This document shows, one piece after another, positions 6,630-39,442 of a stretch of 39,442 nucleotides of DNA; positions within the stretch are counted from its first letter, which is position 1; each line of letters opens with the position of its first letter. The translations under genes and the position numbers were made by a program. Source of the DNA: a virus; the IMG/VR virus record IMGVR_UViG_2166559002_000003, positions 1 to 39,442 of that record; one strand, 5' to 3'. The notes under the pieces are model-generated. The model saw nothing but the letters and a program-made list of their open reading frames with translations, was not told the DNA's origin and did no database searches.

Positions 6630-6642
6630 CGCTGGGCTCTGC

Positions 6643-6843
6643 CTATGCGTCGCCGCCCTGCTCTGCCTGCCGCCGGCTGTCCTCCAGGATCTGCACCAAC
6701 AGCAACGCCGGCGGCTGGGCCTCGGGGGCCTCCACCGGCATGAGACCGCCCTGGCCGTCCGGCACCACCAGCCCGGGATTGCCCGGCGGGGGCTGCGTGG
6801 GCGAGGGCAGGTGGCCCACGACCCGGTTGTTCGGCTTGTCCAT
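6643..6843 (-). CDS. Small hypothetical protein, 66 aa, between the terminase genes
   Basis: A Pro-rich small protein starting at the ATG at 6841-6843 (MDKPNNRVVGHLPSP), with a strong Shine-Dalgarno (GGAGGGACC) directly before it. The C-terminal third (ALLLVQILEDSRRQAEQ) looks helical. The same frame is open up to a GTG at 6970-6972 that touches the small-terminase stop. That would add 43 residues containing three DTW repeats encoded by the 9-bp tandem repeat. The strong ribosome binding site makes the short form more likely. The function is unknown; it may assist terminase. Confidence 0.55.
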   Translation of the reverse strand: MDKPNNRVVGHLPSPTQPPPGNPGLVVPDGQGGLMPVEAPEAQPPALLLVQILEDSRRQAEQGGDA

Positions 6844-6921
6844 GGTCCCTCCACGGTGGGAGGGCTCCGGGGATGGACCATCCTGGCCTACCGGCCTGGC
6901 GCGATCCACCCCGGCCACGCG

Positions 6922-9283: not shown

Positions 9284-9296
9284 AAGAGGACCCCGC

Positions 9297-11694: not shown

Positions 11695-11697
11695 CCC

Positions 11698-16368: not shown

Positions 16369-16405
16369 GCCCTTGGCAGCGCGTCGAGCCGGCCCCAGCG
16401 GACAC

Positions 16406-16714: not shown

Positions 16715-16717
16715 CGA

Positions 16718-20290: not shown

Positions 20291-20953
20291 TCAACGCTTC
20301 CGCGGCGCCCCGACCAGCACGGCGGAGATCGGAGCCTCCCCGTCCAGCCAGGCCCGCGCGCCCCGGTAGCTCTCCATGGCCTGCGTCATCGGGAGGTGGG
20401 CCACGATGCCCGACAGTGACAGGAATGCCCGGACAGCGGCCTCGTCCATCTCCCCTTGAGCCGCCTGCGCCCAGGCGTTCATGCCCTCCTGCAGCACGCC
20501 GGCTCCGGCTGTCCCCTGGTAGCGGAACCCCCGAGCCGCGGCCCCGAACTCCCTCAACCCCACCCAGAGGCCCAGCACCTCGGCTGCCGTCCGCCGGGCT
20601 GTCTCCTTGAGGAACGGCTCGTCGTCATCGTCCCCGCGGAGCATGTGGGTCATGATCTGTTCCCAGATCATGGGCGCGATGAAGATCAGGGTCATTTCCA
20701 TCGCCCAGCGAGCCACCGTCTTCGGGTCGCGCACCTTCATGCGCGCCGTGGACTCGGCCGTCAGGTTCAGGGTGCGGCTTGCGAACCCGTAGAACGTGGT
20801 CCACATCTTCTGCCACTCGCTGCCCCGAGCGATGCCGGCCATCTCGGCGACGCGCCCGCTGCCCTGGCTGGCCACCACAGCAGCGTCCGCAAGCTCGATC
20901 GCCACGGGATCCCAATCCAGCGGGTCGTGCGCCTTGCCAGCCGGCGGCAGCAC
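20291..20953 (-). CDS. C-terminal continuation of the giant polyvalent protein in the -1 frame
   Basis: From the G6 run at 20953-20958 the protein-like sequence leaves the long frame and continues in the -1 frame: VLPPAGKAHDPLDWDPVAIE, then ADAAVVASQGSGRVAEMAGI, WQKMWTTFYGFASRTLNL and a hydrophobic helix (ARWAMEMTLIFIAPMIWEQI), to TAG-side residues ISAVLVGAPRKR. The 220 residues match the helical, partly membrane-like C-terminal domain typical of large phage polyvalent proteins. The long frame instead gives Arg/Trp/Ser-rich sequence and stops at 20767. No ribosome binding site or start is seen for independent translation, so this is either reached by frameshifting or separated by an indel. 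Confidence 0.8.
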   Translation of the reverse strand: MLPPAGKAHDPLDWDPVAIELADAAVVASQGSGRVAEMAGIARGSEWQKMWTTFYGFASRTLNLTAESTARMKVRDPKTVARWAMEMTLIFIAPMIWEQIMTHMLRGDDDDEPFLKETARRTAAEVLGLWVGLREFGAAARGFRYQGTAGAGVLQEGMNAWAQAAQGEMDEAAVRAFLSLSGIVAHLPMTQAMESYRGARAWLDGEAPISAVLVGAPRKR

Positions 20954-23900
20954 CCCCCGGCCTTCTCGTAGGCCGCGATCCAGCTCGGCAGGTCCACCAT
21001 GGCCTGAGTGAAGGCCAGCAGGGCGAAGCTGCTGCGCTGGATCGCCCCGTGCACGTCTCGGCCTCGGGACACCTGAGCAAAGCGCCGGTACTGTTCCGCC
21101 ACTTCGCGCTGGAACGTCTTGTCGCGGTTGGCCATGGAGCTGCTGGCCTGTATGACCTGGTGGTAGATGGCTGCCACCTGCAGAGGCTGGGAGGCCAGCC
21201 GGGTGATGGCTCGCAGCACAGGGATCGGCCCGGACACCACCATCGACTGCGTGATGCCACCCAGGTTGATGAGGTTCGTCGTGATCCGCCATCCGAGCCG
21301 CATCACGATGGTGCCGGCCCGCATCTGGCCGAAGACACGCGCTCCCGCGTCGTTCAGGGCGCCCGTGCCCATGGCCATGTCCCGGTAGGCGTTCAGGAAC
21401 TGCCGGTAGACCGCCTCCCCGTAGCGCTCCTCGATCGCCAAGCGGACAGGCTCTCCGTGCAGCACCGCCTGCATGTCCCGCAGCGCTTCGAGGTGAGTGA
21501 TCATGTGAACCGCCTCGGCCAGGTGTCCCGTCACCACGCCGAAGTCCAGCCGCAGATGGTCGTTCACGTGCCTCGCGCGCTCGATCATCGAGCCGGCCTT
21601 GGTGGACACCCGCGTTGCCGTCCCGGTCTTGAACCGCTCCAGCTGCTGCTCCGGGCTGAGCTCATGGATCCACTTCGCCCCCGCGTACTTGATCCGGTGG
21701 TAGCCGCCCTGCCAGCGCACGGTCTCGCCACTCGGGCTCTTGGACGCGAAGGCGGTGGCCGGCACCTTGATCGGGGCGATGCCCTTGATCCGTTCCCAGA
21801 GCGCCTTGCTCTCCGGCCAGAAGCTGTTTTCCAGGTCCCAGATGATGGCGGCCATCTGGGCGTGCCGCGGCTCCAGCGTGTCCAGGATCGCCTGCACCTG
21901 GCGCGAGTCGAACGTTGTGAGCAGCCGCTCTCGCCCCTCCCTGTTGCCGTTGTTGAGCGCCACCATGAAGCGCTGCTGAAGGGACAGCGGGATGTCCACC
22001 CCAGGGATCTCTCGCGGCCGACCCCACTCCCGACGATCCTCGTCGGTGAACAGCTCGCGCATGGCACTCAGCTGCTCGTTGATCCGATCGGCGTGGGCCA
22101 CCTCGGCGTTTTCGGCACGAATCCCAGGACGCACCAGGAACTGACTCAGAGGCCCGTCGTCCGAGCCGTCGATCTGTCGTGCCAGGCTGTCGATCGCCCG
22201 GTGGGCCGAGCTGAAGTGAGCCAGCTTTCCCTGCCGCTCCTGGTACGCGATCTTCCGCGGCGCTCGGCTGTGCTCGACCCGCCTCGCCACCGCTACCTGG
22301 GCATCCTCGGCGCGCATCCGGCGCCGCACGGTGGTCATCCAGCCCTTGCTCTGCCCGAAGTGACGCACCTGCTTCCAGGCGTCCATCACGTCCTCGATCT
22401 GATCCACCGTCAGGTCGGTGTAGAGCACCCGGGCCTCGGGCCGGTCGTCCAGGATCCAGGGCATGATGTCCGGCGCCAGCTCGCCCGCCTTGTCCAGGGA
22501 CGCCAGCCAGCCGGCCAAGGACATGGTGGGCTGCAGGTCGGGGTTGCTGTACTGCCGTTCCAGGCCCACGCGCTGCAGCAGGCGCAGCAGCTGCCGGCGG
22601 GCCTCCACGCTGCCCCGGCCCACGCCCGCCATGATGTCCTTGCGGCGCAGGAACTTGGCGTAGTCGATCAGCTTCTTCAGCGCCTTCTCGGCGACCAGCG
22701 CCAGGCGGAACGATTCGTAGTTGAACAGCTCCCGCTCCTTCGCCTGGGCCGCCGCGTAGAACTCGCCTTTCCTGACCAGCGCGGCCGATTTGCTGCTCTC
22801 CCGGCGCGCCGCGGCCAGGAAGGCGTTGGGACGGATCCGATTCACGGGCAGCGAAGCCATGGCGGCGGCTGCCTGCTTGCGGATCTGCGGCAGCGTCTTG
22901 GCGCCGGGCAGGGCGCGCCGGCGGTGGGTCACCTGGGGGGCCACCGCGGAGCCGGCCATGGTGGCCGTCGCCTGCCCACCCTCAGCCAGGTCCGCCCGCC
23001 GGCGGAGCAGCCGGCGGTACTCGCTGAAGATCCGGCGAGATCTCGATTCGGTGTCCCTGGCCCGCCTCTGGAGCGCCCTGATCGAAGCCGTGCCCATGAG
23101 CTCAGGGTGCTGCTCCTGCAGCGCCTGGCGGGCCATGCGGTCCACCACGTCATCGCGGCGCTCGGCCACGGTCACCATCCCGTTCAGCAGCACGTCGGCA
23201 GACCGCGCACCGAACGATTCAGCGGCCTCGGCCGGGGTCATCCCGTCGTCGGCAAGAACTCCCATCCCCTCCAGCGCAAGCGTCAGGGATCCGTCCTCGC
23301 CGTACTCCGCCTCGACGGCCGCGCGCGACAGCTTGCCCTGGGCCGATGCGGGCAGGTGAGTCCCGTCAGGGTGCTGCCCGTCGCGCATGTTGGCCAGCGC
23401 CACGGCAGGGGGCGTGTTGCCCAGCTCCTTGGACGCCTTGCGGCGCAGCGATGCCATGCGCCTGCTCCGCTTCTCCTTGACCAGCTCGGCCAGACTCATC
23501 GCGGTCGCTCGGCCCGCCGCCACCACCCCGTCCGCCTCATCGTCCGACACACTCTTGAGGTAGGCGGCTCGGTCCGCCTCCGACAGATCCGCGAGGGTGT
23601 CCTCGGGCAGCGGCTCGGCCGTCAGCTCGTACCGGTCGGCCGCGATCTCCTCGTCCGTGGCCAGCATCCGCTCGAACACCCCGCGGATCTCAGGCGACAG
23701 CTCGAACTCGAACCCCGCGGCCCGGTAGATGCCCTTGATCGAGTCGTAGAGCGCCGTCATCCAGCTGTGAATCGCCGCGAACGCCCCGCGCAGCTTCTTC
23801 GACGGCGCCTTGCCATCCATCAGCCAGGCCTCGAAGGTCCGCGCGATCTTCTCGTGGTGTGCTGTCGTCAGCTGGCTTACGTGACTCACCCCGACGTAGG

Positions 23901-26900
23901 CCAGCAGCTCGTGGAAGTCGTCCACCACCGCCTGGGGCGCGCCGTCTCGGGCCGCCAGGTCGCCCATGATCGTCGTCCACACGTGGGCCATCTCGTGCAG
24001 GAAGGTCGAGCGGTCCCGCGAACGGAACAGCTGGATCAGGAACGCACGCCGTCCGGTGGAATCCATGGCGCCGAACGTCGTGGCGCCCTGCGGGCCGCCA
24101 TCCGGCGCGGCCCCACCCTGCCGTTCACCCTCCTCGGGCTGCTGAAACAGAGGGAAGCCGCGCTGCAGGGCCGCGTCGCGCAGCTCCTTCGTGAGGGTGA
24201 ATCCGTGCTGCTGATCCTTCGGAGGGCGACCCTCATCGTCCCGGGCATCGTCGGGCATGTCCATCCGCTCAACCTTGGCGCCGTACTTCTTCACCAGCTT
24301 GCGCGCCACCTGGGGCAGGATCGCGTCGTAGAACGACCGCATCCCCTTGCCGCCGACCTGCAGGTCCTTCTCTTTGTAGATCCGCCCGGGCACGTACGCA
24401 GGATCGGTCAGCTGCTCCGCGTCGGTCAGGCGCCCCGCCGCTTCGTTGACCGCATCCACGGCGTCCTGCTTCACCGTGGTGCCCATCACATTCTCCATGA
24501 ACCGACTCTCAGGGTCCTCGACGATTCGGAGCAGGCTCACCCGCCTTCTCTCCACCAGGTCACGCAGCTCGTCGCGCGAGAGGGCTTCTGGTGATAAGCG
24601 GGCCGCCATCGCCACGTCTTGCGCCACCAGGCTCAGCACCGTGTCCTCCAGCTCGGTGACACCCTTGAAGTGTTGACCCTGACCGTAGAGCAGGCCGTCC
24701 GCCAGCAGCTGTAGGGGCCGGTCCTCATCCCCTGACAACACCATCGCTTCGCGCCCGCCCTCCCGGTTCAGGAACCGCTCCGCCATCTCTTTGCCGATCA
24801 CCGATTCCAGTGAGTGATCTGTGTACTGGTGGGCGTTTCTCCCGAACGCCCTGACAACCTGACCGGTCTCGTTCACAACAACATCCATGGCCGGATCCAC
24901 TGAATGCTGCTCCTCGCTGGTCAACCTGATGAGCCCGTTGCCCGCATCGGTGACCCGGATGCTCTCAACGAAGTGAGACAGCTCGTAGCGCTCGTTCTGG
25001 ACCGCGCCGCTGGTCCACATCACGCGATCGAACCCGTTTTCCGCGGCCAGCCGGATCACGCGCTTCAGAGCCAGGCTGGTCCACTCCTTCGTACGTGTCA
25101 CGAACGGCCCGGAATCGACAGCATCTTCCGGCTCCAGCTCCAGTAGCTCGCCAGTCCTGAAGGCGCTCTCTCGCAGCGCCAAGCTGGCTGCCTCGGTCGA
25201 GCGCCCGAGCAGCTGCACGACCGACATGGCCTGGACGTGACTCAACGCCTGCTGCAGGTCGTCACGCCACACGTAGCCCGGAAGCGGCGCGCGCAACAGT
25301 GGGGACCGGAACTCTACCTGTGGATCTCCGCCGTCTGGGGACGGGACCCTCACCAGCTCCAACGACTCTGCGATCCGGTGTGCCAGGGCCTGCCGTGCCA
25401 CCTCCGTGGCGTCCTGGCTCGCTTCGTAGTCTGCGCGGATCCGCTCTTGGTCGGCAGCGGAGTAGAACCCCTCCTCGCGCCCACGCTGTGCCCAATCCGA
25501 CTGCACCTCCTCCAGGAACAACACACGCTCGCCAGTCTCGGAGTCGATCCGCGTCTTGAATCGCACGTGGGCCAGCACCGATCCGCCCATCGGATTGAAG
25601 TGCTGGCCGTGGAACGTCGGCGCCCCTTCTGGGGAGGACGGCAGCACCAACAGAAGCTCCCGGTAGCCCTCACCGCCGGACAAAGAGTACTGCTCGAACA
25701 GATACTCGTCGGCGTCTACGTCTTCCACGCGCACCTGGTGGGCATCCATCCACTCCACCACCTCGCCCGTGGTCGGTGCGCGATGCAGGGTGTCCTTGAA
25801 GTCCTGCACGTAGCCGCCCACGTCGAGCCACTTCAGCTCCTCGGCCTTCACGCCCCGCTTCCGCAGAGCCGCCTCGATCTGCGCCTTGCTCCAGCGCGCA
25901 TCCTTCGGCAGCCCCCGAGCGGCATCCAGGGCCTTGCTGTAGAACGGGTCCGCCGGAGCCGGCGCCGGCCCCTGGAACAGCCGCTGGTACAGGGTCTTGC
26001 CCTCATCCACCTCCATGATCTCCTGGCCGGCCATCACGGCCGCCGTGGCCCGGGCCATCCCCTCTCCGGTCGGGATGAAGTAGCGCCGCTTGTACTGGTG
26101 CGTCTCCATGAACACGCCGGCCTTCTCCAGCACCGGCAGGTTGGCGAAGGTGGGACCGATCACCTCGATCCGTCGCTCGCCGGCCACGGTGACGGGCTTG
26201 ATCTGCCAGTGGTTGGTGAGCGTGAAAGTGGACCCGCGCAAGACGATCGGACCCACCTCGGCGGGCGCTATCTCGATCTTCCGCCGGCCCACCCCCAGCT
26301 TCCGCTTGGTGGAGTCCACCAAGCCGTCGGGGACCTCCCGCCCGATCACCTTGCGCCCGTCGGGCAGCGTCGCCCGGTAGACCTTCCCGAAGTCGGGCAG
26401 CCGGTCCCAGATGGGTAGCAGGAGCCCCGTGACCAGGTTCACTTCACGTGTCGCCTCGTTGGGCGCTGCGGCGTACTGCTTGCGCCAGAGTCCCGCTGCC
26501 TCGTCATTCGTTGCGCGGCGCCAGTTGCCTCTCCTGGATCCCTCGCGGAGCAACGCGGTGGACACTCGATCACCGGTCCCTCCCGGACCGTGCATCACAC
26601 GCACGAGCGACGCCACGCCAGACTTATCGGTGTCCGTGACGCTCCGGCCGGCTGCCCACACCCTACCCGAACGGGTGTTTACGAAGAAGTCCTGCCAGTA
26701 GACCCGGGCCTTGGCCCAATCCGTTTTCGGGACTGGGTTGGTGACATTCAACGTCAGCCAGTGGGTCTCGTTGCCTGTGCGCTCATCGACGCGGACCACA
26801 TCGTCCTGCTCGACCGTGAGCCGGTCCGCCTTTAGCTCCTGCATCCCCGAATCGAACGTCCCACGCGCGATGGCCGACTCAATCTCCGCGTCCAGGTTGG

Positions 26901-29900
26901 CGCTGAACTGGTCGAACAGCGCCACCTGGCGGTCCGGTCGAAGCGAAAGCATCCGGTTTAGGAACTGCGTCACCTTCGGGTAGCCGCCTTCGTTGACCGT
27001 CCCGTCCTTGCTGATCAGCGAGTGCAAGCCCATCTCGTCGGTGAGGCTCTTGGCGTCCCACCCCTCCACGCGCCCCTCCAGAATGGCGTTGATCGTCCAG
27101 CGCACGGCGGGCGCCGAGTAGGGTCCCTCCAGGTTGTCCCGTTCGCTGAAGACGGACGCACCCGCCGTTCGCTGCCCCCGCGTCAGCGCCCCCAGCTGCT
27201 CGATGCGGCGCGCCACCGAGCTGATGAACCGCTTGTGACCAGGCAGGTTGGTGGTCACCAGGATGTACTCGGGGGGCTGGGCCTGGTTGCTGCGGTGAGA
27301 CCGGCCGAAGCCCTGGATCGTGATGTCCGCTCGCCACCCGGGCTGCATCACGTAATGCCGGCGCAGCTGCTGGTTCTTCGCCTTCAGGTCCGCGTGGTAG
27401 CCGGCCCCCGTGCCTCCCGCCATGCTGAACAGCAGCACCCGCTTGCGCCCCGCCTGGAAGTCCGCGATCGAAGCCGCGTTGGCCTTCGCCGGGTTGCGCT
27501 TGACGACCACCTGCTTGCCATCGCGGTAGACGATCTTGTTCTGCCGCGCCGTCACCTCGGCGATGGCGTCGTCTCCCAGCTCCCGAGCCAGGAACTCGAT
27601 CGGACCCATAGAGATCGGCAGCTCCATCACGTCGGCGATCAGGGCGTCCCGCTTCGCCACACTGTCCGGGTCCTGCACGAAGTCCCCCTCCGAGTGCACC
27701 ACCCTCCCGTGCGCGTCGGTCACGTCGGTCATGTACTGCCTGGGGACCCAATTGTCCTTGCCGTCTTCGGTCGGCTGGTTCTCATACTGCTGCGTAGGGA
27801 ATGCCTGCTTCAGGTAGTTGATCAGCACTTCCTTCGGCGACACATCTAGCTCCTCGTCGTCCACCACCTCGCCAGCGGCCTCGGCCTTCTTCCGCGCAGC
27901 GACCGCACGCTTCAGCGCCGCCTCCTGGTGTGTCGTCAGCTGCAGGATCACCGATCGCCCGGCCGCCAGGTCCTTCTTGATCCCGGCTACCATGGTGGGC
28001 ATCTGCAGAGAGATCAGCAGCTGGTCGTAGAACCGCAGATTCGCGCTCCAGAACGCGCCGACCTTCTGACCCCGCGCGTTGCCCTTGTCGGCCCCGGTGT
28101 CCTTCATGACCTCGTGCATGTTCTGCAGCGCCACCTGCCAGGCGTCTGCTGCGCGCTCGTACATCAGCGTCTGCTCGGGCGTCAGCTCGTGCTCCATGCG
28201 CTCGTAGGTGACGCCCTTCATGCTGATCGTGCGCGCCGTGTACAGCCCCTGCTGCTTCAGCTCGCTGGCCACCTGTTCCATGGCTGCCAGGCCACCCGTG
28301 GCGATCTTCTCTACGAACTCCATCGCATTGGGGAACGGCGTCCCGATGCCCCAGAGGCCCAGCCGCTCGGCGTAGCCCAGGTTCGCCACCTCCGTGGCGC
28401 CCGTCGCGCTGGCGTACACCACGCGCGCGTTCGGGAAGGCGCGCTGCAGGAACAGCCCGGCCTTGGCGCGAGCCGAAGCCCCTTTGCTGCCGCGCTCGCC
28501 TTCGACCCCCAAGGCCCTCGACATGAAATGGCTCTCGTCAAAGACAATCACCCCGTCGAAGTCTGGCCCCAGCCACTCCACCAGCTGGTCCAGCCGCGTC
28601 TGCTTGCCTTCCGCCTTGCTGCGCTGCTCCTTCAGGTCTCCAGTGAAGGCCGCACCGCTCTTGAGCGCGTCGTAACTCAGGAACGCCACACCATCCTTGT
28701 CCGGCATCCGGTCCTGGGCACCCACCTTGCGGACCTCGATCAGATTCGAGTCAACCGGCCCGAAGTCCGCCCAGCCCTTCATGGCGTCGGCGAACAGCGA
28801 GGGCTTGGCGGACAGCCAGACGTGACGCCGGCGCCCCTGCCGGATGTTGTCGCGGATGATGCCGATGATCTCCCGGGTCTTCCCAACCCCCGTGCCGTCG
28901 CCGATCATGAATCCGCGCCGTGTCACTCCGTCGGGCAGCACCTGGTCGTGCGCCTGCCCGGCGAACACCACCGTCTCCAGCTGCGCATCCGACAGCGCTG
29001 CCATCTCCTCATCGCTGAGCGTCGGCTGGTAGGTGGGCGCGGGCCGCTTGGCAGCCTTCATGGCCGCCGACTCCACCAGATCGGCCGGATGGGGCACAGG
29101 ACCCTCCGGCCGGCTCACCACGCTGGCGTACTCCTCGAAGACAGCGCCCTCTTCGGCCTGGTCTGCGCTGGCCTCCTCGATCACCTCGATGCTGGCCGGG
29201 TCGTCCGGCTCGGCGAGCCGTGGCGCAGCCGGCTCAGCGGCTACGGGGGCGTCGCGTGCAGCGGGTGCGTCTGGCGGGGTGGCCAGTTGTCCCTCTGGCT
29301 GCCCAGCAGCTCGTTCAGGTGCTCCACCAGGTCGTCCGCCATCTCCTGCGGCTCCTGGCTCCGCCACTCCTTCGGCAGGCGCCCCAGGTCCCTCAGCGCC
29401 TGCAGGGCCTCTTCCTTGCCCCTCCACGACCGTTCGATCAGCTGGTCGGCCACCAGCTGCATCACCGCTCCCGCGTGCTCGTTGAGCATCGCCCCCGACT
29501 CCTCCGCCCGAGTCAGCCCCAGCTTCAGCAGGAGCAGCACGGGGGGCACCGTCGGATCCGGGGACGGGGCGCCCAGCGCCTCCAGTGCCTTCTCCGCTGC
29601 CCGGTTGTCCGGGTCCTGGAACAGCGCGTCGGCCTTCATGGATCAGATCCTCCAGTCCCGATAGTAGCAGCGATGGCGAACCCGCGGGGTCTGCAGCCGG
29701 GTCGAAGTGCGTGGACAGCCCCTCGGAGGGGGCCACGGCATCGAAGATCAGCACGTTGGTGCCGAAGGACGTGCCCATCTTCCGGTAGACCTTGCCGTCC
29801 ACCTTCACAACGGCGCGCAGCGAGTAGTTTGCCGCCATCTTGCGGAACCAGGCCGCGTAGCTCGGCGCGCTGGGGAGCATCCCCTCGCCCACGATGGCCA

Positions 29901-32900
29901 CCAGCCGGCCGCCCGGGAGGACCCGGCGCATGGCCTGCTCAATGTGCCGGCCCGCCACGCCCAGGTCATTCTTCACGCCCCGGTGACCGGCGTTGCTGAA
30001 CGGGGGATTCAGGATCACCACCGAAGCGTGCACGTCGGCGGGCAGGACCGCGTGCAGCGCCTCGGCGTCCTCGCCGAACACGGTCTCCACGCCCAGCTCA
30101 TGCAGCAGCGCCGCGCGCAGCGGGTCGATCTCGTTGGCGATCACCCGGGCGCCCGACCGGATCGCGGGCGCCAGCAGGTTGCCAGTGCCCGCCGAGGGCT
30201 CCAGCACCACGTCGCCGGCGCCGAGGCCGGCCAGGATCGCCACGGTCTGGGCGTAGTCCTGGGGCGTGCTGAACTGCTGGAAGGCTTCTTTGGTGCCCGT
30301 CCGACGGGTCTGGGTAGGGATCCGACCCACGATCGCGCCGATCTCCTCGATCGCGGCCAGCAGCTCGGGCAGGGTCGCGTCGGGATCCAGCGGCGGCAGC
30401 CGGGCCACCCGGCGGTTCACGGCGAACTCCGTCGCGTTGGCCAGGTCCTGGGCGTCGTAGATGCCCTGGGCCATCGTCCCGCCGAAAGCGCGGTTGGCCA
30501 GCTCCTGCAGGTCGCGCCAGGTCAGGGCCTCGTCGCCGTCCAGCACCAGGTCGAGCGCGTTGGCCAGCCGGCGCGCGGCCGCGATCTTGTGGGGGACCGA
30601 CTCCGAGACGGGTGCCTGGGGCGGGCTCGGGAGGGGCTCCTGGCCCGTCGGGGGCTCGGGGGTGTTGGGCACCGCATCGACGGGCGAGGCCGGTTCCTGG
30701 GCAGCCGTGGGCTGGTCTGGCGCCTGCTGGGTACTACCGGAGGGTGTTGCCTCGTCCGCGCGGCCCGGTGCTGCCGGAGCATCCGGCGCCGGTGAGGTGG
30801 ACACGGGCTGTCCACCCGGGGCGGCGGCCGGGGCGGCCGGGGCAGCCGGGCGGCTCAAGGGCTCTGCGTCCTGGGGATCGGGCGGTGGAGGGGAGGGGAA
30901 CTCCTCCGCCAGCACCGGGTCCCGGGGCGCCGGGGGCTCGGAGGTGGACACACGCTGTCCACCTGGCGTGCCGATAGCGGGTTCCCGGCTGCTTATAGGC
31001 ACGCTATCGGCAACGCCGGGCACCCCAGACGGATCAGAGGAAGGCCCGGGAACAGCCTTTCCAGGCCCTGATTCCGGCGTTGCCGCCGGCTTGCCGATAA
31101 CGGCTTCGCGGCTGCCTATAGGCACGCTATCGGCATTCTCCGGCGCGGGTGCGGTGGGATGCTCCTTGTCCACCTGCGCGGCGTCGGCGCCCTGGATGTC
31201 CACCGGGAACAGCTGGTCGATCTCCTCCTCGGTCAGGCCGTTGCGCTCCGCGGCCACCCTCACCATCTCGGTGAAGGTGAGCGCCATCACGCCCGCGTCG
31301 TCCTCGCTGAAGGACCCCTCGCGCACCAGCATCTCCTGCACCCGGCGCAGGCGCTCCTTGCGGCGCTTGCGGCGCGCCACCCGAGCGTCGGCCATGTCCT
31401 GCAGCCGGCGGTCGATCAGCGCCCGGCGCTCCCGGGCCGCGGCCAGCTCGGCGGCCGCTTGGTCGTTTGGATGCTTGTCGTCCATCCCGGCCGCTTCTTC
31501 GCGGTCGAGCTGTCCCTGCTCCAGCCTGATGATGGTCTCGTCCAGGGTGGCCGCTTCAGAGCGCAGGTCGCGCTCGTCTGCACTGAACACGGCTTCCTCG
31601 GCCGCGCTGCGCTGCGCCACGGTCGCGGCCGTCTGCTCCGCGCGGGCCTCGGCGATCAGCTCCTGGATCCCCGGTAGCTCGTCTTCCGCCTCCGTCAGGG
31701 TCGGCCCGTCCTCGCGCAGGCGGGCCACCTTGATCAGCTCCTCGGGGTCGGTGGTCTGGGACAGCTCCAGCAGGGAGTCAGCCAGCGGGATCTCAACCTG
31801 GCCGCTGCTCGTGGCGCGCGTGTAGGCATCGCGCCCCCCCTCGGAGATCCGCGCGGCCTCTTCGGCCGGCGACTTGCCCTGCTCGGCCCAATGTCGATTC
31901 CACTTGTCCAGGTCCACCCGAACCACGCCCGCGTCGGGGTCCGAATCGGTCAGCTGGCTCTCCAGGTACGACGCCGCCTCAGCCCGCCGGCGGCCAGCTA
32001 GCTTCGAGTCCCGCAGCGCCGCCGCCGCCCGGCGCACGCTGTCGGCGTCCTGGTGCGCCGTCATGCTCTTGGTCAGCGTCTCCAGCTTGGCCTGGTGACG
32101 ATCTGCCTGGGTCCGGTGGTGGTAGCCGAGGCCCACCTCGACCACCGCGTGCGGGCCGGCGACGCCCGCTTCCATCAGCGCCTCGCCGAGCGGGTCCCCA
32201 GCGAACCCCTTGCGCGCCGCCACGTGGCTGACGAACTCGCCGGCGAACTCACCGCCGACGTTGAACGCACCTTCCGTCACCGCCGCCCGCACGATCTGGC
32301 GCTTGGTGCCCCCCGCAGCCTTGGCCAGCCAGTGACCGCCGATCCCCATGGTCAACGTCTCGACCACGCCGACCACGAAGCCCTTACGCTTGGCCTCGCC
32401 GAGCGCCTGCTTCATCCAATCCTGGTCCCGGTACTTGGCCAGGATCGCCGCGCCGTCGTGCAGGTTCACGTTGTCCCGCTGCAGGGCGTCGGTGATCCAG
32501 GCGCCCATCTCGACAGCCATAACCCCGCTGAAGGTGCCCACCACCCCACCGATGGCACCACCGGCCACGGCCCCCGCGGCAGCTCCCTCGGGACCCAGCA
32601 GGGCGCCGTAGGATCCGCCCATCTCCGCGCCCGTGCCCGCTCCCAGCGCCGAGCCGGCCACGATCGGGATCATGTTCCCCAGCTGGCCCAGGCTCTCGGC
32701 AGCCAGGCCCTCCAGGTTGGACGGCAGCACCAGCAGCTTCTCCCATCCCTTCGCAGCAGCTAGGCGACGCCGATAGGCCTTGATGTCTGGATCCGCCTTG
32801 GCCCGCTCCTGGTCCGCCCGCCGGTAGGCGTCCGCCGCGGCGTAGGCGGCTCCCTCCAGCCCGCCCGGCCCGATCCCGAAGATCGCCGTCAGGTGATGCA

Positions 32901-33591
32901 CCCCAGGCTCCAGGTCGAGCGCTCCCTGCTTGGTGCTCGCCACCATCTCGTCGAACCAGGAGCGCTCCGGGCGGAACGTGGACAGCGCGTCGTTCAGGCG
33001 GTAGAGCGACTCCAGGTCGTCCTGCGCCATCGCCGCGTGGTCACCGTTCTGCAACCACGCCGACAGGCGGGGGGCAGCACGAATGATCGCCCCGTAGTCG
33101 TGCTCCGCGGCGTATCGGAACGCCAGATCCTTGCTCTCGGCAATGGCCATCCCGGCTGGCCGAGGCAGCCCCAGAACCTCGGAGATACGCAACGCCCGAG
33201 CGTGTTGGTCCGGGTCGATGCCCGAGACGGCATTGAGGACCCGCCCCGTGCGTGCCGCCTGAGCGTTCAGGTAAGCCTGAACACCAGGGCTCACGGAAGG
33301 CCCGGATGGATGAGCGCCCGGCGGCAACGCGGGCATTCGGAGTGGCTCGTCAGGAATCCGCTGGCTGGCGAACCCGTCCAGCAGCAGGGGGACGGAAGCC
33401 GGCCGCGGGGGCTGCTTGCCGTTTTCGATCCCACCTGGCCCCCGGGCGGGGCGCGGCTGGAGCGTGAAAGGATTGGGGCGTGCGACCTGTACGGCGCGGC
33501 CGCGGCGACCCGGCCGATTCCCAGAGGGGTGGTCCCCGTCCCCGGGATCAGGCCCCGGCGTCGGCCCCAGCACTGGTACGCGCGGCGTCAC
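20767..33591 (-). CDS. Giant polyvalent ejection protein: methyltransferase, Strawberry-notch helicase, EVQSDW module, zincin
   Basis: 4274 codons from GTG 33589-33591 (GAGGA six bases upstream), or about 4433 residues with the -1 extension. Approximate order: an FRYAAEHD module (150-215); Gly-rich hydrophobic segments (280-400) suited to membrane insertion; coiled coil (655-755); Pro-rich linker (815-1000); an N6-adenine-type methyltransferase with EPSAGTGNL (about 1131) and NPPF (about 1195); a low-complexity linker (1315-1450); an SF2/Strawberry-notch helicase with GDGTGVGKT (about 1563), DESH (about 1680) and QGFGRSHRSNQ (about 2092); a VTGLLLPIWDRLP region; an LPD-type module with FLEEVQSDW (about 2693); a metallopeptidase with STFLHEMAHVW (HEMAH 3199-3203); and a long helical C-terminus. 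Polyvalent proteins like this (DarB-like fusions) enter the cell with phage DNA and counter host restriction or remodel the DNA. Its place after gp14/gp15-like genes equals that of T7 gp16. Confidence 0.85.
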   Translation of the reverse strand: MTPRVPVLGPTPGPDPGDGDHPSGNRPGRRGRAVQVARPNPFTLQPRPARGPGGIENGKQPPRPASVPLLLDGFASQRIPDEPLRMPALPPGAHPSGPSVSPGVQAYLNAQAARTGRVLNAVSGIDPDQHARALRISEVLGLPRPAGMAIAESKDLAFRYAAEHDYGAIIRAAPRLSAWLQNGDHAAMAQDDLESLYRLNDALSTFRPERSWFDEMVASTKQGALDLEPGVHHLTAIFGIGPGGLEGAAYAAADAYRRADQERAKADPDIKAYRRRLAAAKGWEKLLVLPSNLEGLAAESLGQLGNMIPIVAGSALGAGTGAEMGGSYGALLGPEGAAAGAVAGGAIGGVVGTFSGVMAVEMGAWITDALQRDNVNLHDGAAILAKYRDQDWMKQALGEAKRKGFVVGVVETLTMGIGGHWLAKAAGGTKRQIVRAAVTEGAFNVGGEFAGEFVSHVAARKGFAGDPLGEALMEAGVAGPHAVVEVGLGYHHRTQADRHQAKLETLTKSMTAHQDADSVRRAAAALRDSKLAGRRRAEAASYLESQLTDSDPDAGVVRVDLDKWNRHWAEQGKSPAEEAARISEGGRDAYTRATSSGQVEIPLADSLLELSQTTDPEELIKVARLREDGPTLTEAEDELPGIQELIAEARAEQTAATVAQRSAAEEAVFSADERDLRSEAATLDETIIRLEQGQLDREEAAGMDDKHPNDQAAAELAAARERRALIDRRLQDMADARVARRKRRKERLRRVQEMLVREGSFSEDDAGVMALTFTEMVRVAAERNGLTEEEIDQLFPVDIQGADAAQVDKEHPTAPAPENADSVPIGSREAVIGKPAATPESGPGKAVPGPSSDPSGVPGVADSVPISSREPAIGTPGGQRVSTSEPPAPRDPVLAEEFPSPPPPDPQDAEPLSRPAAPAAPAAAPGGQPVSTSPAPDAPAAPGRADEATPSGSTQQAPDQPTAAQEPASPVDAVPNTPEPPTGQEPLPSPPQAPVSESVPHKIAAARRLANALDLVLDGDEALTWRDLQELANRAFGGTMAQGIYDAQDLANATEFAVNRRVARLPPLDPDATLPELLAAIEEIGAIVGRIPTQTRRTGTKEAFQQFSTPQDYAQTVAILAGLGAGDVVLEPSAGTGNLLAPAIRSGARVIANEIDPLRAALLHELGVETVFGEDAEALHAVLPADVHASVVILNPPFSNAGHRGVKNDLGVAGRHIEQAMRRVLPGGRLVAIVGEGMLPSAPSYAAWFRKMAANYSLRAVVKVDGKVYRKMGTSFGTNVLIFDAVAPSEGLSTHFDPAADPAGSPSLLLSGLEDLIHEGRRAVPGPGQPGSGEGTGGAGRPVPGSDGAPRAAPAEAGADSGGGVGGDAQRARGSGDAAGGRPADRTVVEGQGRGPAGAEGPGAPAEGVAEPGAAGDGGRPGGAPERAAGQPEGQLATPPDAPAARDAPVAAEPAAPRLAEPDDPASIEVIEEASADQAEEGAVFEEYASVVSRPEGPVPHPADLVESAAMKAAKRPAPTYQPTLSDEEMAALSDAQLETVVFAGQAHDQVLPDGVTRRGFMIGDGTGVGKTREIIGIIRDNIRQGRRRHVWLSAKPSLFADAMKGWADFGPVDSNLIEVRKVGAQDRMPDKDGVAFLSYDALKSGAAFTGDLKEQRSKAEGKQTRLDQLVEWLGPDFDGVIVFDESHFMSRALGVEGERGSKGASARAKAGLFLQRAFPNARVVYASATGATEVANLGYAERLGLWGIGTPFPNAMEFVEKIATGGLAAMEQVASELKQQGLYTARTISMKGVTYERMEHELTPEQTLMYERAADAWQVALQNMHEVMKDTGADKGNARGQKVGAFWSANLRFYDQLLISLQMPTMVAGIKKDLAAGRSVILQLTTHQEAALKRAVAARKKAEAAGEVVDDEELDVSPKEVLINYLKQAFPTQQYENQPTEDGKDNWVPRQYMTDVTDAHGRVVHSEGDFVQDPDSVAKRDALIADVMELPISMGPIEFLARELGDDAIAEVTARQNKIVYRDGKQVVVKRNPAKANAASIADFQAGRKRVLLFSMAGGTGAGYHADLKAKNQQLRRHYVMQPGWRADITIQGFGRSHRSNQAQPPEYILVTTNLPGHKRFISSVARRIEQLGALTRGQRTAGASVFSERDNLEGPYSAPAVRWTINAILEGRVEGWDAKSLTDEMGLHSLISKDGTVNEGGYPKVTQFLNRMLSLRPDRQVALFDQFSANLDAEIESAIARGTFDSGMQELKADRLTVEQDDVVRVDERTGNETHWLTLNVTNPVPKTDWAKARVYWQDFFVNTRSGRVWAAGRSVTDTDKSGVASLVRVMHGPGGTGDRVSTALLREGSRRGNWRRATNDEAAGLWRKQYAAAPNEATREVNLVTGLLLPIWDRLPDFGKVYRATLPDGRKVIGREVPDGLVDSTKRKLGVGRRKIEIAPAEVGPIVLRGSTFTLTNHWQIKPVTVAGERRIEVIGPTFANLPVLEKAGVFMETHQYKRRYFIPTGEGMARATAAVMAGQEIMEVDEGKTLYQRLFQGPAPAPADPFYSKALDAARGLPKDARWSKAQIEAALRKRGVKAEELKWLDVGGYVQDFKDTLHRAPTTGEVVEWMDAHQVRVEDVDADEYLFEQYSLSGGEGYRELLLVLPSSPEGAPTFHGQHFNPMGGSVLAHVRFKTRIDSETGERVLFLEEVQSDWAQRGREEGFYSAADQERIRADYEASQDATEVARQALAHRIAESLELVRVPSPDGGDPQVEFRSPLLRAPLPGYVWRDDLQQALSHVQAMSVVQLLGRSTEAASLALRESAFRTGELLELEPEDAVDSGPFVTRTKEWTSLALKRVIRLAAENGFDRVMWTSGAVQNERYELSHFVESIRVTDAGNGLIRLTSEEQHSVDPAMDVVVNETGQVVRAFGRNAHQYTDHSLESVIGKEMAERFLNREGGREAMVLSGDEDRPLQLLADGLLYGQGQHFKGVTELEDTVLSLVAQDVAMAARLSPEALSRDELRDLVERRRVSLLRIVEDPESRFMENVMGTTVKQDAVDAVNEAAGRLTDAEQLTDPAYVPGRIYKEKDLQVGGKGMRSFYDAILPQVARKLVKKYGAKVERMDMPDDARDDEGRPPKDQQHGFTLTKELRDAALQRGFPLFQQPEEGERQGGAAPDGGPQGATTFGAMDSTGRRAFLIQLFRSRDRSTFLHEMAHVWTTIMGDLAARDGAPQAVVDDFHELLAYVGVSHVSQLTTAHHEKIARTFEAWLMDGKAPSKKLRGAFAAIHSWMTALYDSIKGIYRAAGFEFELSPEIRGVFERMLATDEEIAADRYELTAEPLPEDTLADLSEADRAAYLKSVSDDEADGVVAAGRATAMSLAELVKEKRSRRMASLRRKASKELGNTPPAVALANMRDGQHPDGTHLPASAQGKLSRAAVEAEYGEDGSLTLALEGMGVLADDGMTPAEAAESFGARSADVLLNGMVTVAERRDDVVDRMARQALQEQHPELMGTASIRALQRRARDTESRSRRIFSEYRRLLRRRADLAEGGQATATMAGSAVAPQVTHRRRALPGAKTLPQIRKQAAAAMASLPVNRIRPNAFLAAARRESSKSAALVRKGEFYAAAQAKERELFNYESFRLALVAEKALKKLIDYAKFLRRKDIMAGVGRGSVEARRQLLRLLQRVGLERQYSNPDLQPTMSLAGWLASLDKAGELAPDIMPWILDDRPEARVLYTDLTVDQIEDVMDAWKQVRHFGQSKGWMTTVRRRMRAEDAQVAVARRVEHSRAPRKIAYQERQGKLAHFSSAHRAIDSLARQIDGSDDGPLSQFLVRPGIRAENAEVAHADRINEQLSAMRELFTDEDRREWGRPREIPGVDIPLSLQQRFMVALNNGNREGRERLLTTFDSRQVQAILDTLEPRHAQMAAIIWDLENSFWPESKALWERIKGIAPIKVPATAFASKSPSGETVRWQGGYHRIKYAGAKWIHELSPEQQLERFKTGTATRVSTKAGSMIERARHVNDHLRLDFGVVTGHLAEAVHMITHLEALRDMQAVLHGEPVRLAIEERYGEAVYRQFLNAYRDMAMGTGALNDAGARVFGQMRAGTIVMRLGWRITTNLINLGGITQSMVVSGPIPVLRAITRLASQPLQVAAIYHQVIQASSSMANRDKTFQREVAEQYRRFAQVSRGRDVHGAIQRSSFALLAFTQAMVDLPSWIAAYEKAGGCCRRLARRTTRWIGIPWRSSLRTLLWWPARAAGASPRWPASLGAASGRRCGPRSTGSQAAP
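20953..20958 (-). other. G6 run at the frame change in the giant gene
   Basis: Minus-strand codons GCC GGG GGG TGC. Re-reading the last G gives GTG CTG CCG CCG and the natural C-terminal sequence. Slippage of tRNA-Gly on GGG GGG by -1 is possible at the second codon (GGG to GGG). A homopolymer sequencing error or a real inactivating insertion would look identical. Confidence 0.8.
29241..29639 (-). CDS. Nested 132-aa gene inside the giant gene, +1 frame
   Basis: ATG 29637-29639 is preceded by GGAGGATCTGATCC, a strong Shine-Dalgarno at a suitable distance. It opens a 132-codon frame with more than 90% G/C at third positions and balanced composition: MKADALFQDPDNRAAEKALE, a hydrophobic helix (VPPVLLLLKLGLTRAEESGA), AVMQLVADQLIERSWRGKEE and LEHLNELL-type helices to the TAG at 29241. 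In the same stretch the giant frame is only Gly, Ala, Pro and Arg, as expected for an out-of-frame reading. The gene therefore appears to be translated on its own, and the giant protein uses its shadow as a linker between methyltransferase and helicase. The function is unknown; a helical regulator or partner of one of those domains is a reasonable guess. Confidence 0.7.
   Translation of the reverse strand: MKADALFQDPDNRAAEKALEALGAPSPDPTVPPVLLLLKLGLTRAEESGAMLNEHAGAVMQLVADQLIERSWRGKEEALQALRDLGRLPKEWRSQEPQEMADDLVEHLNELLGSQRDNWPPRQTHPLHATPP
30796..30963. repeat. Two copies of a short palindrome GGTGGACA-N5-TGTCCACC
   Basis: Perfect 8-bp inverted repeats with a 5-base spacer occur at 30796-30816 (spacer CGGGC) and 30943-30963 (spacer CACGC). 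Both lie in the Pro-rich linker of the giant gene and encode GGQ(P/R)VSTS. The flanks also match (GAG before and CC after). They could form hairpins in mRNA. Confidence 0.85.
30969..31135. repeat. Two copies of an 11-bp inverted repeat (TGCCGATAGCG ... CGCTATCGGCA)
   Basis: Copy one (30969-31012) has perfect 11-bp arms and a 22-base spacer. Copy two (31092-31135) has the same layout with one arm mismatch. TATAGGCACGCTATCGGCA is identical in both. They encode ADSVPI(G/S)SRE..IG.P in the linker of the giant protein. The first starts only six bases after the second short palindrome ends, so the elements are clustered. Confidence 0.85.
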
Positions 33592-33877
33592 GGCCGATCC
33601 TCACGGCACTGAGCGCGGCCCAGGCCGCGGCCAGCAACCCCAGCAGGCACACCGACCCGAGGATCACCAGCATCGCCTTGGGGGACCCCTCTGCGAACCG
33701 CAGCAGCCACGACGGAGCCGGCTCGGTCTGATCGAACACAGCAACCCATCCACGCAACGCTTCCACGTCGAGCGGGTCTACCCCAGCGTGGTCGCCGGAT
33801 TCCAGCCACGCCTCGACCTTCGGAATGGCTGCCACGATCGGAGCGTAGTCGTGCTCCGCTGCGTATCGGAACGCCAG
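33094..33877. repeat. Duplicated 33-bp core (FRYAAEHDY module) shared by the giant gene and its neighbour
   Basis: Bases 33094-33126 (giant gene) and 33845-33877 (small membrane-protein gene) match at 32 of 33 positions, in the same orientation. The encoded similarity extends to about 60 residues (LAFRYAAEHDY..I, then WL..GDHA and a later SW). This is a domain duplication, not a chance match. Confidence 0.9.
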
Positions 33878-34063
33878 GTTCCGCGGCCGCTGGTGCGTTT
33901 CCGGCCGCGGCTCGATGCCACCGATCCGCTGAAACAGCTCGGTCGGGAACGGCCTGGCGTTGGCTCGTGCCTGGCGATCCATCTCCCGCGCCAAGCCGAA
34001 CGCACCCAGCGCGCCCACGCCGAGCAGCACCACGGCCAGCACCACTCTCGTGACTCGTCCCAC
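33548..34063 (-). CDS. Two-TM membrane protein with an FRYAAEHD domain
   Basis: 171 residues from GTG 34061-34063 (GGAG six bases upstream); a GTG at 34130-34132 would add 23 Cys/Arg-rich residues. An N-terminal transmembrane segment (VTRVVLAVVLLGVGALGAFG) and a C-terminal one (KAMLVILGSVCLLGLLAAAW) flank a soluble domain. Its core (NLAFRYAAEHDYAPIVAAIP, then WLESGDHAGVDP) is repeated near residue 155 of the giant protein. The 3' end overlaps the giant gene by 44 bases. It may be a membrane-embedded ejection component or a partner that pairs with the giant protein's N-terminus. No known family assigned. Confidence 0.6.
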   Translation of the reverse strand: MGRVTRVVLAVVLLGVGALGAFGLAREMDRQARANARPFPTELFQRIGGIEPRPETHQRPRNLAFRYAAEHDYAPIVAAIPKVEAWLESGDHAGVDPLDVEALRGWVAVFDQTEPAPSWLLRFAEGSPKAMLVILGSVCLLGLLAAAWAALSAVRIGRDAARTSAGADAGA

Positions 34064-34147
34064 GGGTCGCTCCGAGGCCCAACAGCCGCGGCTGCAAGCA
34101 TACCGCCGGGTCCACGAATCCAGCAAGCGCACCTCGATCCACGTGAA

Positions 34148-35986
34148 TCATCGTTGAGGGTTCGCATTCTCTGCGTTGTCCCAGCTCTCCCGGATCGCCT
34201 CCGGCGTAATCGGGTGCCCCCTCGACTGGAGCTCCGCGGCGATCCGCAGCCGGTCCGCCGCGGGGATGTCGCTCAGGTCGATCATCCTGAAGGTCGAATC
34301 CCAGATCACTCCGGTTTCCTTGATCCGCTCCTCCAGGAGTGGCTTCAGCAGGTTGGCCACTTCCAGCCCGCTGAGCTTGCGATTCAGGCCTCCTCGGCTC
34401 GTGCCCGGGCCACCGTCGGGTGCCTGCGCCAGGGCGATCGCCTCGTCCAGCTGTCGCGCGAACTCCACCCGGTCGATCCATCGGCCGTCCCCGGGCTTCA
34501 CGTTGGGGTAGACCGAATCCAGCACTCCATCAACAGCCTTGGGCACCGACAACGCACCGCCGCGCAACTCGGTCTCCCCGTCCATCATCTGCTTCTGCAG
34601 CTTATGCCAGGTGTCGAACTTCTTGCCTCCCAGCAGTGCCCCGTCGTACAGCAGGTTGCGGCGCTTGAAGCCCTCGGGGTCGCTGTAGCTCTGCGTCCGC
34701 AGCTCGGCTTCGAGTGTCAGCCGGTCCCGATCGCGCCGCTGCCCGAGGAACTGCCGCGCGCGGGTCCATAGGCCGCGTCGCTCGGGGCCGGTCGCGTTCG
34801 CCCACTCGTCGGGCCGCGTCTGCTGCAGCATGGCCATGTTGCCGCGCAGGCTCACCAGCTCGTCGTCCAGGGCACGAAACACCTCATCGTGCACGGCGTT
34901 GGCATCGGCCAGCTCCTGAGCCGCCTGGCTGCGCACCACCGCGCGCGCCGCCTTCCGCCTCTCGGCGTCCCAGCCCTGGCTCTCGCTCACCGTGTCGAGC
35001 TTGTCGAGGCGGGCCTGGAGCATCGCGGCCGGTCCGATCGTCGCGCGCGCCCCCACGTCGATCGGCATCGCCTCGGCCAGCTGCCCGGCCAGTCGCAGGT
35101 TCTGACCCTGCTCGTGGCTGTTGCTCACGTTGTCGCGCAGCTGGTTCAGGGCCGGCCCTGAGATCTGGTCCTCGTAGCGCTTCAGGTAGTCGCTGGCTTC
35201 GGTGTCTTTCTCCTGGCTCAACAGGCTGGAGATCACGCCCTGGTGAAGCTCGGAGCGCCGGACGGCGAGCTCGGCCGACACGAACTGCCCCACCGTCATG
35301 CCACGCACCATCTCCGGGTGCTCCGTCGCAAACACCCGCACGCGCTGCTCGATGTCTCCCAGGGCCTGATCGACCACCGTGGTGTCGAGCTGGCCGCCCA
35401 CGTACGTGATCCCGGTCTTGGATTCCACCAAGGTCGAGCGCAGCCGCTGGTCCTGCCCCTGATTGTAGGTGCCGACGTAGAACGCTTCGCGCTCCGGGGC
35501 CTCATACCGCGTCAGCGCGTCCTGGAAGCGCTGCATCGACTCGTGCATCTTGCCCGCCGCCTTCGCCCGGGCACCGCTGGGTAGCGCCTTGAGCAGCTGG
35601 GAGGCTCGCGCCTGCGCGGCCTCCACGGCTGGCGTCACGCCAGCGAACAGCTCTTGTCCGTGCCGGCGCGTCAGACCAGGGCCTGGCTTTCCATCGGTGC
35701 CGGGCAGGTCGGTCTGCTCGCCATCGAGGAGGTTGGTCCAGTAGTCCTCGTGATTCGCCACGGCCTCCTGGGCGACCGCCAGCTGTGCCTTCTCCTGTTC
35801 CTGCTTCAATGCTGCCTTGCGAGCGTTCGCTCTTGCGAGGTTCGCCCGACTGCCCGCCACTAGGCTCTCCGACGCGCCATTTGATGCTCTGCCCGTGCGG
35901 CCGCCCCCTGCGGCACCCACGTTGATCGCCACGCCAGGGAGCGCCTGGCTTGCCACTTGCGGCGCGTTGTATCGGGGAATCTGCAT
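34148..35986 (-). CDS. Internal virion (ejection) protein, gp15-like position
   Basis: 612 residues. It begins MQIPRYNAPQVASQALPGVA, a lead seen in many podoviral internal virion proteins ('I..Y......P.ALPG....'). The rest is almost entirely helical and polar, with long Ala/Arg/Gln/Glu stretches (ARKAALKQEQEKAQLAVAQE) and repeat-like helical pairs (SQEKDTEASDYLKRYEDQIS; GPALNQLRDNVSNSHEQGQN). There is no signal peptide or catalytic motif. Lying between a gp14-like gene and the giant polyvalent gene, it probably forms part of the proteinaceous tube that carries DNA across the envelope during injection. Assigned by composition and synteny. The ribosome binding site is weak (AGTGAG). Confidence 0.65.
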   Translation of the reverse strand: MQIPRYNAPQVASQALPGVAINVGAAGGGRTGRASNGASESLVAGSRANLARANARKAALKQEQEKAQLAVAQEAVANHEDYWTNLLDGEQTDLPGTDGKPGPGLTRRHGQELFAGVTPAVEAAQARASQLLKALPSGARAKAAGKMHESMQRFQDALTRYEAPEREAFYVGTYNQGQDQRLRSTLVESKTGITYVGGQLDTTVVDQALGDIEQRVRVFATEHPEMVRGMTVGQFVSAELAVRRSELHQGVISSLLSQEKDTEASDYLKRYEDQISGPALNQLRDNVSNSHEQGQNLRLAGQLAEAMPIDVGARATIGPAAMLQARLDKLDTVSESQGWDAERRKAARAVVRSQAAQELADANAVHDEVFRALDDELVSLRGNMAMLQQTRPDEWANATGPERRGLWTRARQFLGQRRDRDRLTLEAELRTQSYSDPEGFKRRNLLYDGALLGGKKFDTWHKLQKQMMDGETELRGGALSVPKAVDGVLDSVYPNVKPGDGRWIDRVEFARQLDEAIALAQAPDGGPGTSRGGLNRKLSGLEVANLLKPLLEERIKETGVIWDSTFRMIDLSDIPAADRLRIAAELQSRGHPITPEAIRESWDNAENANPQR

Positions 35987-35998: not shown

Positions 35999-36409
35999 TT
36001 AGGAATTCTGACCAGTACCAGTACTCATACCGTTCCCCGGGCCAAACAGGTTCGAGCTGCTCTGGTTGCCCTGGGCCGCGTCGAACGCCAGATTCGCCTC
36101 CAACCGGCGCAGCTTGCCCGACACCCTCAGGCCCCATGCCTCTCGCGCCGCGTTGTTCAATGCCCGCTGGATGTCGAGACCGCTGAAGAACCCGGTCTCC
36201 TCTTGGATCGCCAGCCCCGTGCCTGAGTCCAGCGACACCCCTGCTCCGGCCAGGCCGGCTACCTGCTGCCCGGTCACGTTGCGGGCATTGCGCGCGACAT
36301 CCTGCGCCACTTGCCGGCCCCGCTGCAGCGCGTCCAGCATCTGGATGTCCTTGAAACGCGCGTTCAGGTGCGCCAAGTCCCTGCGCGTGGTGTCTGCCTG
36401 TGCTGCCAT
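35999..36409 (-). CDS. Internal virion protein, T7 gp14-like
   Basis: 136 residues from ATG 36407-36409, directly after the nozzle-gene stop, with GGAGG upstream. A helical N-terminus (DLAHLNARFKDIQMLDALQR) is followed by the typical core: a Gly/Ala/Val turn region (QVAGLAGAGVSLDSGTGLAI), then QEETGFFSGLDIQRALNNAA and REAWGLRVSG. This matches the pattern of small podoviral internal virion proteins ('G..L..GS......E.......A..IR.NA.REA.G'). T7 gp14 is somewhat longer (about 196). It is likely ejected first and forms an outer-membrane pore. Polar C-terminus (GPGNGMSTGTGQNS). Confidence 0.65.
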   Translation of the reverse strand: MAAQADTTRRDLAHLNARFKDIQMLDALQRGRQVAQDVARNARNVTGQQVAGLAGAGVSLDSGTGLAIQEETGFFSGLDIQRALNNAAREAWGLRVSGKLRRLEANLAFDAAQGNQSSSNLFGPGNGMSTGTGQNS

Positions 36410-39277: not shown

Positions 39278-39278
39278 G

Positions 39279-39442
39279 TCAGTAGCCTCGGCGCGCCGTG
39301 ATCAGGCGCCCCGTCCGCCGCAGCGGCTCGTTCTCCTCGTTGGCGTTCTGCGCCTTGGCCGCCGTGAGCGTGCGGAAGTACTGCTGCTCGGCCGCGTCGG
39401 CCCGATCCGACCAGGCCGTGAACTCACGCGCGATCTCGGCCG
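39279..39442 (-). CDS. Partial gene, C-terminal 53 residues of a probable head-tail/tail tube protein
   Basis: The frame is open from the window edge to a TGA at 39279-39281, just before the nozzle gene start (1-base gap). The visible sequence is helical and polar (AEIAREFTAWSDRADAAEQQ, YFRTLTAAKAQNANEENEPL) and ends RRTGRLITARRGY. A gp11-like tubular tail protein A would be expected here, but too little is visible to assign a family. The start lies beyond the window. Confidence 0.6.
   Translation of the reverse strand, partial: AEIAREFTAWSDRADAAEQQYFRTLTAAKAQNANEENEPLRRTGRLITARRGY

Follow-up and report, generated by a model that had tools for sequence, protein, structure and literature searches.

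Polyvalent proteins, the pairing of a methylase with a SNF2/SBNO helicase within them, and the proposal that they are injected and then processed by an MPTase domain were put forward by Iyer et al. 2017 (PMC5512222). According to the same work, DarB of P1 is present in the virion and protects DNA in cis, the N4 virion RNA polymerase (RNAP), which has an MPTase domain, is packaged whole, and Strawberry-notch lies within a clade of ATP-dependent DNA translocases; its text names neither Bordetella nor ejection. Podoviral ejection proteins were reviewed in 2022, with sizes of 609–1337 for those like gp16 and no word on polyvalent proteins, effectors or Bordetella. The Bbp10-type proteins Bbp10 of BPP-1 (2052 aa), gp16 of AF (2213 aa), gp32 of Carin1 (2854 aa) and 039 of Jess A (2039 aa) are each encoded in an internal-virion-protein cassette, after the nozzle gene. 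Virion data for such proteins were not found in the Carin1 and BPP-1 papers, the BPP-1 structure paper having analysed two major bands only. Residues 700–1000 of Bbp10 were among the seeds of the CLCA_X metalloprotease family (PMC3650047).

The window (the whole stretch of DNA analysed, 39,442 bases) is the IMG/VR virus record IMGVR_UViG_2166559002_000003. It carries the following virion genes, among which lies one very large gene:

24..506, minus strand: Bbp16-like cement protein (PF21190, 2.4e-9)
562..1575, minus strand: major capsid protein, GP7/Bbp17 type (PF20911, 2.9e-70)
2916..4814, minus strand: portal, i.e. head-to-tail connector (PF12236, 3e-90)
5127..6881, minus strand: large terminase (phrog_2, 9e-14)
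20767..33591, minus strand: polyvalent gene in the ejection-protein slot, main frame (P0001), 4274 aa, GTG start
33548..34132, minus strand: ORF of 194 aa, hydrophobic in two stretches and with another LPD22-like segment (P0001 154-213 matched at 45% over 60 aa, E 6e-14)
34148..35986, minus strand: gp15/Bbp11-like internal virion protein, 612 aa (phrog_10475, 1.5e-8, first ~300 residues only)
35999..36409, minus strand: gp14-like internal virion protein, 136 aa (phrog_418, 2e-17)
36410..39277, minus strand: tail tube/nozzle protein, Bbp13-like, 955 aa (phrog_376, 1.9e-101)

The portal, capsid, Bbp16, nozzle, gp14-like and terminase matches all point to a podovirus whose virion follows the BPP-1 plan, and by gene content the phage is a BPP-1-like podovirus. 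The orders terminase-portal-capsid-Bbp16 and nozzle-gp14-gp15-like-big gene match those of BPP-1, AF and Carin1. The contig is permuted, its ends falling between the Bbp16 and nozzle genes; as the bbp14-like gene expected there was not found at the window ends (1-24 and 39277-39442), a small part of the genome is probably missing from the record, with the contig likely ending where that gene would be. A reading of this DNA made earlier from its letters only (hereafter the sequence-only reading) had put gp14- and gp15-like genes ahead of the big gene. The gp14-like gene is supported, the gp15-like match is weak, and the 194-aa ORF, for which a threshold of E 1e-3 gave no homologue among the other chassis loci, intervenes between the gp15-like gene and the big gene. 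Pfam gave no match, and hence no muralytic (peptidoglycan-cleaving) domain, in the gp15/Bbp11-like protein, unlike the annotation of Bbp11. The big protein was also proposed to occupy the slot of T7 gp16. It does so by position, being the last and largest in the gp14-gp15-gp16 order, but it has no sequence match and no significant fold match to T7 gp16 or to any solved ejection protein, and, unlike T7 gp16, no lytic transglycosylase domain was found in it by Pfam. Neither Pfam nor PHROG detected in it an RNAP catalytic domain like that of the N4 virion RNA polymerase.

The big gene starts with a GTG at 33591, preceded at ~6 nt by GAGGA, and can be divided as follows:

31672..33414, minus strand: constant N-module (residues ~60-640) with LPD22 at 119-207 (32971-33237; PF18834, 6e-14); matches to AF, HU1, DC33 and CP2
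26032..30639, minus strand: cargo, a complete DNA adenine-methylase/Strawberry-notch helicase module (residues ~985-2520) defined by Pfam, PHROG and alignment with a plasmid protein; catalytic motifs invariant
29692..30483, minus strand: methylase domain with TP, EPSAGTG and NPPF (residues ~1037-1300; phrog_9133 and phrog_6263, DNA methyltransferases, at ~1094-1284; alignment invariants)
26839..29094, minus strand: Strawberry-notch SF2 helicase, two lobes (residues 1500-2251; AAA_34, PF13872, at 1500-1812, 3e-99; Helicase_C_4/SBNO, PF13871, at 2001-2251, 5e-73)
24142..25974, minus strand: EVQSDW module (residues ~2540-3150), tentatively and weakly GNAT-like in fold, adjoining the zincin in 36 of 136 family members
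20959..24099, minus strand: part of the constant C-module that precedes the frameshift (residues 3165-4211; phrog_9880, 5e-173)
23602..24099, minus strand: zincin metallopeptidase domain opening the C-module, HEMAH at 23983-23997, second conserved HE downstream (H20, E21, H24 and E68 invariant in the alignment)
20953..20958, minus strand: G6 run within the frame-break interval, probable frameshift or sequencing-error site
20291..20952, minus strand: shifted frame, within P0002, encoding the final ~200 residues of the C-module (phrog_9880 1996-2210; blastp)

All seven motifs singled out by the sequence-only reading occur in the main frame: EPSAGTGNL at residue 1131, NPPF at 1195, GDGTGVGKT at 1564, DESH at 1685, QGFGRSHRSNQ at 2093, EVQSDW at 2695 and HEMAH at 3199. 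The profile searches that it had called for return the Strawberry-notch helicase and LPD22 with Pfam and the DNA methyltransferase with PHROG, and its HEMAH metallopeptidase is borne out by the family comparison given below. As judged from these matches, the motif and domain content of P0001 is not due to chance. The polypeptide thus combines enzymatic domains of unrelated activity (methylase, SF2 helicase and zincin) with LPD22, and gene order and profile matches place its gene among late virion genes. AAA_34 and Helicase_C_4 are both present with Walker A/B and motif VI, as expected of Strawberry-notch, and the methylase shows TP, EPSAGTG and NPP[FY] followed by an SNF2-type helicase, as in gamma-class adenine methylases of the DarB-type dyad.

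A single gene of ~4400 residues had been proposed for 20291-33591. The 4274-aa frame stands, but the remainder lies in another frame, so that this length holds only if both frames are joined. The phrog_9880 match resumes in P0002 (20291-21292) at its residues 131-319, and blastp of the shifted frame matches BPP-1, Carin1, Jess A and ctEw122. This switch of frame places the frameshift between 20911 and 20958, probably at the G6 run, whether as a sequencing or assembly error or as a real change. In the latter case the gene could be decaying and this copy inactive, given that the frame change drops the last ~200 residues, which all complete relatives keep. Such decay appears quite unlikely, as all catalytic motifs are preserved and 4200 codons show no second disruption, the continuation in the next frame is unbroken and still matches the family, and single-base errors in homopolymers are a common artefact of sequencing and assembly. 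Within these last ~200 residues, which include the hydrophobic-helix region, the copy in the window may be broken or misassembled, and the shifted frame shows only weak hydrophobicity where the conserved C-terminal helix of the family would fall.

By homology (phrog_9880) and position, the big gene is the counterpart of bbp10 of BPP-1. A tblastn search with the C-module matched 42 phages; at least 517 IMG/VR stretches are related to it, and a species genome set contains 79 C-module loci, many in proteobacterial assemblies. Single-sequence scans of IMG/VR with the helicase or the C-module gave no matches, and alignment-based queries were needed. The homology to the Bbp10-type proteins of the 42 phages, together with domain content and gene order, bears out the earlier placing of a polyvalent protein in the ejection cassette. 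The relatives in BPP-1, AF, Carin1 and Jess A share with the window the gene position, the LPD22 N-module and a C-module that starts with HExxH and is 26–29% identical over ~1050 aa. They differ from it in their cargo, which is PBECR1, LPD23, PBECR5 or ART instead of a methylase-helicase. The relatives first inspected are 2039–3125 aa in total, and that of Microcystis phage Mel-JY33 reaches up to 4012 aa.

A comparison of 136 members (the window and 135 complete relatives) separates a constant part from a variable one. The C-module comprises ~1250 residues and always starts with the HExxH metallopeptidase: HExxH is kept in 135 of the 135 complete relatives, and a second HE downstream, whose Glu is invariant across the alignment, is as expected of a zincin. 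HExxH and the C-terminus are separated by 1248 (sd 42) and 1270 (sd 60) residues in two sets, while the length before HExxH varies from 627 to 2963 and from 157 to 2099 residues in these sets and is 3198 in the window. The most hydrophobic 19-mer of the C-module lies at a median of 148 residues from the C-terminus (IQR 142–152), and in 127 of 135 members it is 100–260 residues from the end; hydrophobic segments of the N-module show no enrichment over shuffled sequence. The membrane-like segments announced for the window protein reduce, in the main frame, to one weak segment (342-360, KD 1.67). The AlphaFold2 model of the C-module (pLDDT 76) is almost wholly helical beyond the zincin. Sequence and fold searches of the PDB with the C-module gave nothing significant. 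A fold search of BFVD returned 50 matches at E 1e-3 or better, several of them named polyvalent, ART, nuclease, MuF or acetyltransferase proteins, which suggests that this constant part extends beyond the reach of sequence comparison. In one locus, that of Vibrio phage 1.185.O, four CRISPR spacers are annotated in the phage genome, downstream of the cassette (17111-17328).

What lies between the modules changes from phage to phage. It is an ADP-ribosyltransferase domain (ART-PolyVal) in Jess A, ctEw122 and DC33, a PBECR nuclease in BPP-1 (PBECR1) and in Carin1 (PBECR5), and LPD23 in AF. In 47 IMG/VR cargo regions, ART was found 18 times, DUF7178 10 times, PBECR5 7 times, acetyltransferases 3 times, RadC twice, and PBECR3, GGDEF, LPD3, DUF3293 and MuF_C once each. 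The inheritance of these cargoes was assessed on a FastTree tree of the 136 C-modules by comparing change counts with those of 100 label shuffles; the rows of this tree are highly diverged from one another, and the labels come from HMMs trained in this analysis, so that missed members would inflate the counts. ART (27 rows) requires 26 changes versus a shuffled mean of 24.9 and PBECR5 (13 rows) 12 versus 12.6; both therefore leave no trace of vertical inheritance at the tree depth sampled. The EVQSDW module (36 rows) requires 15 changes versus a shuffled mean of 31.7, below all 100 shuffles, and so tends to travel with the constant part. Its AlphaFold2 model (pLDDT 71) finds mostly GNAT acetyltransferases as best PDB matches, all weak (E >=0.06, probability <=0.51), and a GNAT-like fold is proposed for it tentatively. 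Instead of one molecule that does everything, as first envisaged, the ejection protein is better described, from these comparisons, as a conserved vehicle plus an exchangeable payload, the zincin belonging to the vehicle because all 136 members have it and the methylase-helicase to the payload.

The methylase-helicase occupies the cargo slot of the window only (1 of 136 members). It is widespread elsewhere: the ~1500-residue module occurs in 680 of 72,556 plasmid records, many of these plasmids being typed as conjugative, and in 158 IMG/VR stretches, while a search of 50,697 cultured-phage records with its helicase part gave no match at E 1e-5. Residues ~985-2520 align end to end, with 38–40% identity, with stand-alone plasmid proteins such as the "strawberry notch family" protein of Methylorubrum extorquens p1METDI (WP_012778833, 1451 aa), whose methylase and SBNO parts are aligned over nearly its full length but which is encoded by a conjugative plasmid and lacks the ejection chassis. 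By description, DarB of P1 is similar in fusing a methylase to a SWI2/SNF2 helicase and in protecting DNA after injection; it differs in having no podoviral chassis. The methylase-SBNO polyvalent proteins of IMG/VR (e.g. L102, L114 and L140) share the methylase-SBNO pair and often a zincin with the window protein but belong to other phage types, in which BPP-1-like nozzle and gp14 genes were not found, and lack the full chassis. A chassis common to all methylase-SBNO phage proteins was considered and rejected, since a nozzle or gp14 gene occurs in 0 of 80 loci. Only L114 among these loci has the distal part of the chassis (profile 781-1214), in a 4375-aa protein (6296-19420) that combines methylase-SBNO, LPD23 and a DUF6782 metallopeptidase with it; a second fusion of related kind therefore exists. 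In a FastTree tree of 83 modules, that of the window clusters with those of L140 and L147 (SH-like 96) and plasmid modules are interspersed among the viral rows. An origin of the module from plasmids was not adopted, as 158 IMG/VR stretches carry it and the copy of the window groups with viral ones.

Residues S68-T69-P70 (TP), E91-G95 (EPSAGTG) and N155-F158 (NPPF) of the module alignment are invariant, as are those of Walker A/B and motif VI, and the predicted methylase and helicase are therefore probably active. DNA entry in T7 is enzyme-driven. By analogy, and because Strawberry-notch belongs to the translocase clade mentioned above, the module could be part of an ejection motor in which the SNF2-type translocase pulls the genome in, methylation being secondary. 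This is distinctly improbable: the module is absent from 135 of the 136 members, which must also deliver DNA, so it is not a general entry motor, and it also occurs, there too with a methylase, in many plasmids typed as conjugative.

The best explanation, to which a probability of about 0.6 is given, is that the protein is the largest among the internal virion (ejection) proteins of a BPP-1-like podovirus, built of a vehicle and exchangeable cargo. The vehicle, as delimited by comparison, consists of the N-module (LPD22 and ~450 residues) and of the ~1250-residue, mostly helical C-module, with its zincin first and a hydrophobic helix near its end; the cargo is the complete adenine-methylase/Strawberry-notch translocase, followed by the vehicle-associated EVQSDW module. 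The mode of action can be pictured as follows. Packed in the head, the protein would pass through the tail ahead of the DNA or together with it, and the vehicle would help to form a conduit across the envelope. The zincin would then cut near its own domain and release the cargo into the cytoplasm, where the methylase-translocase would run along the entering phage DNA and modify it. We infer from the likeness to DarB an anti-restriction role, the modified DNA being shielded from restriction as DarB does in cis. The ADP-ribosyltransferases and nucleases of relatives would reach host targets by the same route. Alternatively, the protein may not be injected but work at a late stage in the cell that makes the phage, for instance by modifying progeny DNA ahead of packaging or by excluding superinfection; a methylase could work at that stage, and the Carin1 and BPP-1 papers give no virion presence for Bbp10-type proteins. 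This is nevertheless unlikely, as the relatives inspected have the gene between tail genes and those for internal virion proteins, the effectors of sister proteins (ART, PBECR) are most readily understood as acting in a host that has just been entered, and DarB and the N4 virion RNA polymerase provide precedents for packaging.

Extended to the whole family, the reading of the window protein as vehicle plus cargo becomes more tentative, at slightly less than even odds. Bbp10-type proteins would be general delivery vehicles, in which the fixed LPD22 N-module and zincin-started C-module carry a payload of ~100 to ~2500 residues that the zincin frees in the host. These payloads, toxin-like enzymes or anti-restriction machines drawn from the polyvalent pool of plasmids and phages, would be swapped faster than the vehicle diverges. 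New here are the combination of a methylase-helicase with a Bbp10-type chassis and the measured design of constant chassis and variable cargo, which ties together the literatures on polyvalent and on podoviral ejection proteins. The loose idea of injected multidomain proteins thereby becomes a definable system with a vehicle end, a cargo site and an always-adjacent protease. If confirmed, it would mean that folded enzymes as large as ~2500 residues are injected by BPP-1-like podoviruses and that one methylase-helicase payload passes from conjugation to phage ejection or back. Virion presence, processing and cargo function are directly testable, since BPP-1 and its cultured relatives are tractable.

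Three other ORFs of the window may be mentioned. An ORF at 7388-8161 (plus strand, opposite to the terminase) has in its C-terminal part the C-terminal half of a tyrosine recombinase; it covers positions 80–171 only of the Phage_integrase profile and appears truncated. A DUF5131 protein (E 1.3e-46) is encoded at 11796-12806 (plus strand). In the tail-spike position, a 989-aa protein (16718-19687, minus strand) has alpha/beta-hydrolase-like segments in each half (BD-FAE at 121-156 and Abhydrolase_3 at 549-593) and is possibly a duplicated esterase spike.
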